A stretch of 64,000 bases of DNA from Lachnospiraceae bacterium. Its GTDB lineage: Bacteria > Bacillota > Clostridia > Lachnospirales > Lachnospiraceae. The stretch is taken from assembly GCA_015057865.1 (NCBI GenBank), contig SVDH01000012.1, positions 1-64,000 of the forward strand, given 5' to 3'. Below the pieces are notes generated by a model. The model had not been told where the DNA came from and did no database searches. It saw only the letters and a program-made list of their open reading frames with translations. Positions within the stretch are counted from its first letter, which is position 1, and every line of letters begins with the position of its first letter. Made by a program: the position numbers and the translations under genes. Below, in pieces: positions 27,507 through 30,819 of this stretch.

Positions 27507-27818
27507 TTACAGACCTGCAAAGATTTCGATATCCTTGCTGTCTTCCGTCAGTGTGACGATTGCCTTCTTGGTATCGGCTTTCTTTCCGCTGATCACGCCC
27601 TGACGGGTGTTACGACGGCTTGCTTTGCCTGTCTGGTTCAGTGTGCGAACCTTTGCCACCTTGACATCGTCAAACATCTTCTCTACAGCTTCCTTGATCA
27701 TGGCTTTGTTTGCCTCCGGATGAACCAGGAATGTGTATTTTTTCTCTGCCATGAGATTCATGCTTTTTTCTGTAACCACTGGTTTGAGGATTACGTCATA
27801 GTACTGAATGTTTGCCAT
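27507..27818 (-). CDS. rplW: 50S ribosomal protein L23
   Basis: [51 protein letters not shown]. Confidence 0.98.
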
Positions 27819-28438
27819 TATGCATACACCTCCTCGATGGTTGCAACGGCATCCTTTGTTACGACAACTGTGTCATATTTCAGGATGTCATATACATTGA
27901 TGGTATTCGTCAGTGCGGTTTTGACATCTTTTACGTTTGCAGCTGAGCGGATGACGGTCTCATCATTGTCATTTAATACGACCAGCGCTTTTGCAACGTT
28001 TAAGTTGTTCAGCACGTTTACGAAATCCTTTGTCTTGATCGCATCCAGCTTCAGTTCATCCAGAACAACGAACTTGCTGTCAGCAACTTTTGCGGAAAGT
28101 GCAGATTTTAATGCTGCTCTCTTTTCCTTTTTGTTTACCTTCTGTGTGTAGTCACGCGGTACCGGTGCGAATACAACGCCGCCGCCTGTCCACTGCGGAG
28201 ATCTTGTAGAACCCTGTCTTGCATGTCCGGTTCCTTTCTGTCTCCAAGGTTTTCTTCCGCCGCCGGATACTTCCGAACGGGTTTTGGCTTTCTGTGTGCC
28301 CTGGCGGTTGTTTGCCAGCTGTGCAACGACTGCCTTATGTAACAGATGCTCGTTTGGCTCTACTCCGAAGATTGCATCATTGAGATCGATCGTTCCCACT
28401 TCTTCGCCAGCCATATTATAAACAGATACGGTTGCCAT
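27818..28438 (-). CDS. rplD: 50S ribosomal protein L4
   Basis: [48 protein letters not shown]. Confidence 0.98.
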
Positions 28439-29192: not shown

Positions 29193-29504
29193 TTACTTCA
29201 TCTTAATATCAATGCTAACACCAGCCGGAACTTCCAGTCTTGTCAGAGCATCAACTGTCTTCTGTGTCGGTGCGATGATATCGATCAGTCTCTTGTGTGT
29301 TCTCTGTTCGAACTGCTCTCTGGAATCTTTGTATTTGTGTACCGCACGAAGGATTGTAACAACTTCCTTCTTCGTGGGAAGCGGTACCGGTCCGCTGACC
29401 TCAGATCCATTCTTCCGAACTGTTTCGATGATCTTCTTAGCGGACGCATCCACCATTTCATGATCATACGCTTTGAGGATGATTCTCATCTTCTGATTTG
29501 CCAT
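29193..29504 (-). CDS. rpsJ: 30S ribosomal protein S10
   Basis: [76 protein letters not shown]. Confidence 0.98.
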
Positions 29505-29788
29505 AAAAATACCTCCATTGTTGCCTCGCAAGCCGCCTGCTTTCAGCCTGTGCTTTTCGCAGAAAAAAATCACCAGCTTCGCACTTTAGTTCAGTACGAC
29601 AAGCGGTGACTGTACACTCTCCCGTGTGTGTCCTCCCCTCATGAGATTCCACAAACACATTCTGATCTGCTTTCGCAGCTATTGAGTACAGTGACTTGTC
29701 GCCAGTTTCCTAACATGACATTCGCTCCACGGAAAACCTGCCACAACGGGCAGCAACCTCACGCTTCACAGCTATCAATGCCACAGCA
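29505..29788 (-). promoter_or_regulatory. Structured 5' leader of the S10 operon (candidate attenuator)
   Basis: About 284-nt untranslated leader; terminator hairpin and alternative antiterminator helix readable by hand (see findings). Confidence 0.75.
29563..29609 (-). terminator. Intrinsic terminator within the S10 leader
   Basis: RNA UCACCGCUUGUCGUACU-GAACUAA-AGUGCGAAGCUGGUGA followed by UUUUUUU; about 15 bp with small bulges. Confidence 0.8.
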
Positions 29789-29794
29789 CGAATC

Positions 29795-29823
29795 ATTATA
29801 ATCGAATGTAATGAAGAATGCAA
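29795..29823 (-). promoter_or_regulatory. Sigma-A-type promoter of the S10 operon
   Basis: Minus strand: TTGCAT (29823-29818), 17-bp spacer, TATAAT (29800-29795). Confidence 0.85.
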
Positions 29824-29898
29824 GGGGTTTTTTTCAAGTTTTTTTTGCCGTATAATCATGGGCATATAATTAGTTTATTTATAAGGAAGGAACACAAT

Positions 29899-30819
29899 AT
29901 GTGGTTAGCATCCAACTGGAAAGATTACGAAGTGCTTGACTGCTCCGGCGGCGAGAAGCTGGAGCGCTGGGGCGAATACCGTCTCGTGCGGCCGGACCCG
30001 CAGGTCATCTGGAATACGCCAAAGAAGGATCGGTTCTGGAAAAAGCCGAACGCGCATTACCACAGAAGCAAAAAGGGCGGCGGAGAATGGGAGTTTTTTG
30101 ATCTTCCGGAGCAATGGGATATCCACTACTCTCTTCCAGAGAACGTTACATCCTCAAACTCCTATGCAGCACACAAAGAGCTGACCTTCCGTCTGAAGCC
30201 GTTTGCCTTTAAACATACGGGTCTGTTCCCGGAGCAGGCCGCAAACTGGGACTGGTTTTCACAGTTGATCGCCGAAGAAGCGGACAAAAGAAACAGCAGC
30301 CAGCCTGTCAAAGTATTAAACCTTTTTGCCTATACCGGCGGTGCGACGATTTCCGCTGCTGCCGCAGGCGCACACGTGACACATGTCGATGCGTCTAAGG
30401 GCATGGTAGGATGGGCAAAGGAAAATGTCGCTGCTTCCGGACTTGCTGATGCCCCGATCCGATGGCTTGTCGATGACTGTGTCAAATTTGTCGAGCGGGA
30501 GATCCGTCGCGGCAATCATTATGATGCGATCATCATGGATCCGCCATCCTACGGCCGCGGCCCGAAGGGCGAAATCTGGAAGATTGAAGAGCGGATCCAT
30601 CCGCTCGTAGGTCTCTGCACCAAGATCCTCTCAGATGATCCGCTCTTCTTTTTGATCAATTCCTATACCACCGGTCTGCAGCCGGCTGTTCTTTCTTATT
30701 TAATAGGAAGTGAATTAAAACCATTTGACGGTCAGATTACTTCCAGTGAGATCGGTCTGCCTGTCACAGACTCAGGACTTGTGCTGCCATGCGGTGCCAG
30801 CGGGCGATGGAGCAGGTAA
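29899..30819 (+). CDS. Class I SAM-dependent methyltransferase (RlmI/K-like)
   Basis: VLNLFAYTGGATISAAAAGAHVTHVDASKGMVGWAKEN; IIMDPPSYGRGPKGEIWK; RBS AAGGAAGG before MWLASNWKDYEVL. Confidence 0.88.
   Translation: MWLASNWKDYEVLDCSGGEKLERWGEYRLVRPDPQVIWNTPKKDRFWKKPNAHYHRSKKGGGEWEFFDLPEQWDIHYSLPENVTSSNSYAAHKELTFRLKPFAFKHTGLFPEQAANWDWFSQLIAEEADKRNSSQPVKVLNLFAYTGGATISAAAAGAHVTHVDASKGMVGWAKENVAASGLADAPIRWLVDDCVKFVEREIRRGNHYDAIIMDPPSYGRGPKGEIWKIEERIHPLVGLCTKILSDDPLFFLINSYTTGLQPAVLSYLIGSELKPFDGQITSSEIGLPVTDSGLVLPCGASGRWSR

Follow-up and report, generated by a model that had tools for sequence, protein, structure and literature searches.

A predicted autogenous transcription attenuator in the S10 operon leader of a Lachnospiraceae bacterium and the conservation of its competing helices

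Architecture of the rpsJ leader

The stretch analysed here (the window) comprises 64,000 nucleotides of a Lachnospiraceae bacterium (contig SVDH01000012.1, positions 1 to 64,000 of the forward strand), in which a 5' leader of ∼285 nt has been located on the minus strand between rpsJ (29504-29193) and a divergent methyltransferase-like gene on the plus strand (29818-30819). The S10 cluster, the largest ribosomal-protein operon, begins directly downstream of this leader and has the gene order rpsJ-rplC-rplD-rplW-rplB-rpsS-rplV (S10, L3, L4, L23, L2, S19, L22), as far as it has been checked. The product of the divergent gene is a class I methyltransferase that weakly resembles the 23S rRNA methyltransferases RlmK/RlmI, every NCBIfam match lying below its cut-off. 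Judging from the promoter TTGCAT-17-TATAAT, transcription of the leader probably starts at about 29788; a sigma-70 scanner has overlooked this promoter because its -35 hexamer matches in three of six positions only. The -10-like box seen in relatives lies mostly 20-23 nt 5' of the leader, and at a distance of no more than 45 nt in 114 of the 139 family loci.

An S10 leader of Firmicutes was reportedly described by Yao et al. in 2007. The Rfam search of the window has matched the S10-Clostridia ribosomal protein leader RF03136 (Eckert and Weinberg, 2020; PMC7247131) ∼11 nt 3' of the predicted transcript start and 192 nt before the start of rpsJ, thus within the 5' UTR and with the promoter immediately upstream. 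The match reaches 91.1 bits against a gathering threshold of 35.1, covers the full length of the model (1-81) without any non-standard pair, and stands before the same downstream gene as in the described family. A further match, to Ysr197, has been dismissed as far below its cut-off. The Rfam model ends at position 81, that is, 5' of both the antiterminator and the terminator described below, whereas the window continues into both.

Three overlapping pairings have been found in the leader (Table 1). The preliminary description of this DNA had placed an intrinsic terminator with a U7 tract on the minus strand, and exactly this hairpin has been recovered at the same positions, with a folding energy of -19.6 to -20.0 kcal/mol and directly adjoining the U-tract. 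Among 1000 dinucleotide-shuffled versions of the region, 3 contain a hairpin with an energy of -15 kcal/mol or lower beside at least six U, and none contains one of -20 kcal/mol or lower. The antiterminator consists of a 7-bp part (CGACAAG/CUUGUCG) and a 6-bp part (CUGUAC/GUACAG). As CUUGUCG lies inside the 5' arm of the terminator, the 7-bp part cannot coexist with the terminator; the incompatibility that had been ascribed to the whole pairing thus holds for this part, whereas the 6-bp part has no overlap with the terminator in the window. The third pairing is helix P3 of the RF03136 fold, whose strand GACA (29700-29697) is common to P3 and to the 5' arm of the antiterminator. The attenuator layout proposed earlier has therefore stood, and it had been incomplete with respect to the sensor, a catalogued leader, and to P3 as a third exclusive helix.

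Minimum-free-energy folding of the growing chain has yielded P3 first, then the antiterminator with 13/13 pairs while the 3' end lies at 29595-29583, and finally P3 together with the terminator from 29567 onwards. In the complete RNA, the terminator state is favoured over the antiterminator state by 7 kcal/mol (-69.8 versus -62.7), and antitermination must therefore be kinetic or assisted. The stability of the whole leader is unremarkable (z -1.0), so that the case rests on conservation and not on energy.

Table 1. Features of the S10 operon leader and adjoining genes in the window (RNA sequences are those of the minus-strand transcript)
Feature	Positions	Strand	Basis or remark
-35 element TTGCAT	29818..29823	-	sequence; 17-nt spacer to TATAAT
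-10 element TATAAT	29795..29800	-	sequence; -10-like box also in relatives
RF03136 S10-Clostridia ribosomal protein leader (sensor domain)	29696..29777	-	covariance-model match
Leader helix P3, UGUC 29720-29717 / GACA 29700-29697, then GUUA/UGGC	29697..29720	-	Rfam structure line; anti-antiterminator
Antiterminator 5' arm part 1, CGACAAG	29695..29701	-	shares GACA with P3
Antiterminator 5' arm part 2, CUGUAC	29686..29691	-	sequence, alignment of relatives
Linker hairpin 1, CUGC-GAAA-GCAG	29667..29678	-	folding; sequence variable in relatives
Linker hairpin 2, GUGUUUGUG...CACACAC	29624..29659	-	folding; ACACACACGG side conserved in family
Antiterminator 3' arm part 2, GUACAG	29610..29615	-	sequence, alignment of relatives
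Antiterminator 3' arm part 1, CUUGUCG	29597..29603	-	within terminator 5' arm
Intrinsic terminator hairpin	29570..29609	-	arms UCACCGCUUGUCGUACU 29609-29593 and AGUGCGAAGCUGGUGA 29585-29570
U7 tract	29563..29569	-	sequence
Shine-Dalgarno GGAGG of rpsJ	29512..29516	-	detached from terminator in the window's genus
rpsJ (uS10), first gene of the operon	29193..29504	-	NF001861, 154 bits, cut-off 85
rplD (uL4), candidate ligand gene, third in the operon	27818..28438	-	TIGR03953, 269 bits, cut-off 130

Conservation of the helices among relatives

Matches to RF03136 have been obtained in 280/299 genomes at the level of the family, 154/197 of the order, 141/246 of the class and 107/250 of the phylum, counts in which the genome draws overlap (some genomes are shared) and which include some matches below the cut-off. 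The leader is situated upstream of rpsJ in almost all fetched loci that have enough sequence; the relatives with names, found through L4, are mostly Lachnospiraceae, and the family-type platform is present in Roseburia inulinivorans and Eubacterium ramulus. Downstream of the sensor, the family and the order share a platform of the form GRCGACAAG(G)UCACUGUAC - linker - ACACACACGG...GUGUACAGUCACCRCUUGUCGUACU - loop - AAGURCGAAAAGGAGGSGACUUUUUUU-AUG. Its antiterminator 3' arm is recognisable by sequence in 194/229 loci, and it has been detected in 52/60 family genomes with exactly one copy each, the reversed-pattern control giving 0. Conservation of the terminator and of the two antiterminator arms extends across Lachnospiraceae and the order, over more than 100 genera, and compensatory changes have been seen in both helices. 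This is the reverse of the lack of conservation and covariation in relatives that, according to the preliminary description, would have spoken against an attenuator 5' of rpsJ.

The extent of covariation differs between the helices. Using the MAFFT alignment A1 of 59 sequences in place of a rigid alignment of the arms, 90.6% of the terminator cells have been found paired, with double-sided changes in 8 pairs and 20 cells, which 0/500 shuffles reach; for the antiterminator, 95.0% of the cells are paired and 4 pairs are doubly changed, a number reached by 4/500 shuffles. With the rigid, sequence-anchored alignment the number of doubly changed cells had been just 5, owing to the near-invariance of the arms and to indels that put the distant loci out of register. 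P3 is paired in 92% of the cells in relatives and almost invariant in sequence, as expected for a strand that would be bound to two partners, and its covariation is accordingly uninformative. Taken together, covariation is strong for the terminator and modest for the antiterminator, distant relatives showing evident compensatory changes; within the family, the antiterminator arms and P3 are so invariant that covariation there is weak.

Several of the exchanges are visible by eye, e.g., CGAUG/CAUCG (L225), CGAGA/UCUCG (L241) and CGGCA/UGCUG (L237), and in class-level relatives the arms have diverged and yet pair, as GGUU(U/C)C/GGAACC in L255 and L257 (GGUUCC/GGAACC in the latter), as CUUUAAGAC/GUCUUAAG in L186, and also in L254. 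When the duplex formed by each locus with its own 5' arm has been ranked against swapped ones, the own arm has come out in the top 3 of 48 for 12/29 distant loci, with ∼1.8 expected. Since the winning duplex in several of these loci differs from the GCGAC-anchored one, this test may be taken as supportive of the antiterminator, not as conclusive.

The linker segment ACACACACGG, which lies outside the antiterminator, shows strong conservation in the family and faces a variable partner strand, GUGUG; it is possibly a second recognition element.

Proposed control of the operon and its signal

Considering these structures together, we regard it as likely that the leader controls its operon autogenously, as a transcription attenuator with three states that exclude one another and with uL4 as the most probable ligand. 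In the free leader, with the polymerase between ∼29595 and 29580, CGACAAG...CUGUAC would pair with GUACAG...CUUGUCG, and the antiterminator formed in this way would sequester half of the terminator 5' arm, so that transcription would proceed into rpsJ-rplC-rplD and beyond. A ribosomal protein of the operon, uL4 (rplD) being the likeliest, would when in excess bind the RF03136 fold and keep P3 (UGUC/GACA) closed; GACA would thereby be barred from the antiterminator, the terminator (29609-29563) would form, and termination would occur ∼60 nt 5' of the rpsJ start codon. We infer a ribosomal-protein signal, L4 as that protein, and the direction in which protein means off: as P3 shares GACA with the antiterminator, a protein holding P3 closed would favour termination. 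That the ligand is one or another ribosomal protein encoded in the operon is held with good confidence, and L4 is the leading candidate by analogy with the precedent of E. coli, with a chance that we put at even or slightly better.

The mechanism class as such is known (B. subtilis rplJL, infC). For the rplJL leader of B. subtilis, the logic of anti-antiterminator, antiterminator and terminator has been established with L10(L12)4 as the ligand (Yakhnin, 2015, as described in PMC10931766). The window resembles this system in having the three mutually exclusive elements 5' of a ribosomal-protein operon, namely a terminator between leader and gene, an antiterminator over its 5' arm, and a sensor helix over the 5' arm of the antiterminator; it differs in its unrelated sensor RNA and operon, and in that its ligand is a candidate only. 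The operon is the same as that controlled by the S10 leader of E. coli, in which transcription also terminates prematurely inside the leader, with L4 stabilising a NusA-promoted pause and with control exerted on both transcription and translation (PMC10931766). A competing antiterminator is not mentioned there, whereas in the window a strand of the leader is shared with one. A third system, the rpsJ motif RLC-47-1 of C. difficile and relatives (three Peptostreptococcaceae genera; PMC11109978), is likewise a predicted ribosomal leader 5' of rpsJ in Clostridia, a likeness by description only; in the part of that paper available to us, its authors do not describe a terminator or antiterminator.

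An attenuator that senses something other than a ribosomal protein encoded in the operon, such as another ribosomal protein, the speed of RNA polymerase or NusA/NusG, or a small molecule, is in our estimation rather unlikely. Mimicry of the L4-binding region of 23S rRNA has not been found: a plain sequence comparison with domain I of the 23S rRNA of a relative has given a score of 22, which 146/200 shuffles reach, and the search of the window's own assembly for 23S rRNA has returned no match. Moreover, Eckert and Weinberg (PMC7247131) caution that the assignment of ligands is uncertain and that there may be cis elements to which no ribosomal protein binds. Against these points, RF03136 has been described solely as a ribosomal leader of S10, and its position 5' of rpsJ is retained almost throughout the fetched loci.

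The leader and the mechanism class are thus already known, and what is informative is the conservation of the platform and the way in which lineages have rewired it. For the RF03136 leader, neither an expression platform nor a mechanism is stated in the accessible main text of PMC7247131. No description of the conserved platform has been found in the accessible main texts, and literature searches for an experimental study of the RF03136 leader in Clostridia have found none. Control of S10 in Clostridia rests on predicted leaders, with the mechanism unstated in those main texts, and a near-invariant platform in more than 100 genera of common gut bacteria gives exact bases for mutation and an exact 3' end to be sought.

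Shine-Dalgarno placement and other platforms on the same sensor

In most relatives the terminator and the ribosome-binding site coincide. AGGAGG lies within the terminator 3' arm and the U-tract extends up to the AUG in 135/139 family and 50/53 order loci, and in an independent set the same layout has been seen in each of the 58 loci with a recognised platform motif. This hairpin (median z -3.9), in which the Shine-Dalgarno sequence is paired in 183/186 relatives, could stop transcription and, upon read-through, hide the ribosome-binding site. Control in these relatives therefore need not be purely transcriptional, and both levels may act together. One might go further and regard the leader as primarily a translational switch, in which the hairpin hides the Shine-Dalgarno sequence, the U7 is a mere spacer, and the version in the window is a remnant or a secondary adaptation. 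Apart from the paired Shine-Dalgarno sequence, such a reading may draw on phylum-level relatives (L183-L208), in which the terminator platform is absent and the leader ends 13-22 nt before the AUG in 23/26 loci, suggesting direct translational control, and on some class-level loci that have retained a Shine-Dalgarno-adjacent hairpin without a U-tract. We consider it quite improbable, however, as the terminator in the window, ∼45 nt from the Shine-Dalgarno sequence and with a perfect UCACC/GGUGA stem followed by U7, is sensible for transcription only, and as a U-tract of at least five immediately 5' of the AUG has been kept in 136/139 family and 50/53 order loci.

The view that the arms match by chance, around a constitutive terminator of the ordinary kind or an intergenic hairpin, would agree with the unremarkable stability of the whole leader; it is extremely unlikely, and as a sole explanation ruled out by conservation, given arms and terminator that have persisted over more than 100 genera with their pairing preserved via compensatory changes, and a comparable terminator in only ∼3/1000 shuffles.

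The exception to the combined layout is the window's genus, represented by two species (the window and L064), in which an intact terminator lies ∼60 nt before the AUG, apart from the ribosome-binding site. In both, the arm has the sequence AAGUGCGAAGCUGGUGA-U7/8 and complements UCACC perfectly, and the ribosome-binding site follows ∼45 nt further downstream. Judging from these two species, the terminator of this genus would have been freed from doubling as ribosome-binding site. The 60 nt between terminator and start codon (29569-29504 in the window) include GCGAAAAG...AGGCGGCUU, a sequence similar to a decayed copy of the GCGAAAAGGAGGCGGCUU arm of the family.

Beyond the attenuator proposed for the window, RF03136 may drive several platforms across the phylum, a view for and against which we find the balance about equal. 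The family and order would use a dual terminator containing the Shine-Dalgarno sequence and a U-tract abutting the AUG; the window's genus would have split these functions, with a stand-alone terminator; other Clostridia would use a different terminator, its 5' arm often complementary to the last strand of the leader; and further out, the leader would act beside the ribosome-binding site. Such lineages would form a natural series showing one RNA sensor moved between transcriptional and translational control. Among the 37 class- and phylum-level loci with long leaders, a different linker hairpin with UUUU has been found in 24, often as CCCGG...CCGGGUUUU, and its 5' arm is complementary to the last strand of the leader over at least five Watson-Crick bases in 13. 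In the class-level loci L162-L182 and L249-L265, the linker terminator is often CCCGG...CCGGGUUUU and frequently complementary to the last RF03136 strand, CCGGGCG; judging from its sequence, it seems to form an attenuator platform of its own on the RF03136 sensor. Three loci of one class-level group (L178, L255 and L257) combine a GGUUC/GGAACC-like antiterminator with a UCGURCG/CGUACGA or ACCUAA/UUAGGU hairpin beside or around the Shine-Dalgarno sequence and lack the U-tract, an arrangement that is probably a translational version.
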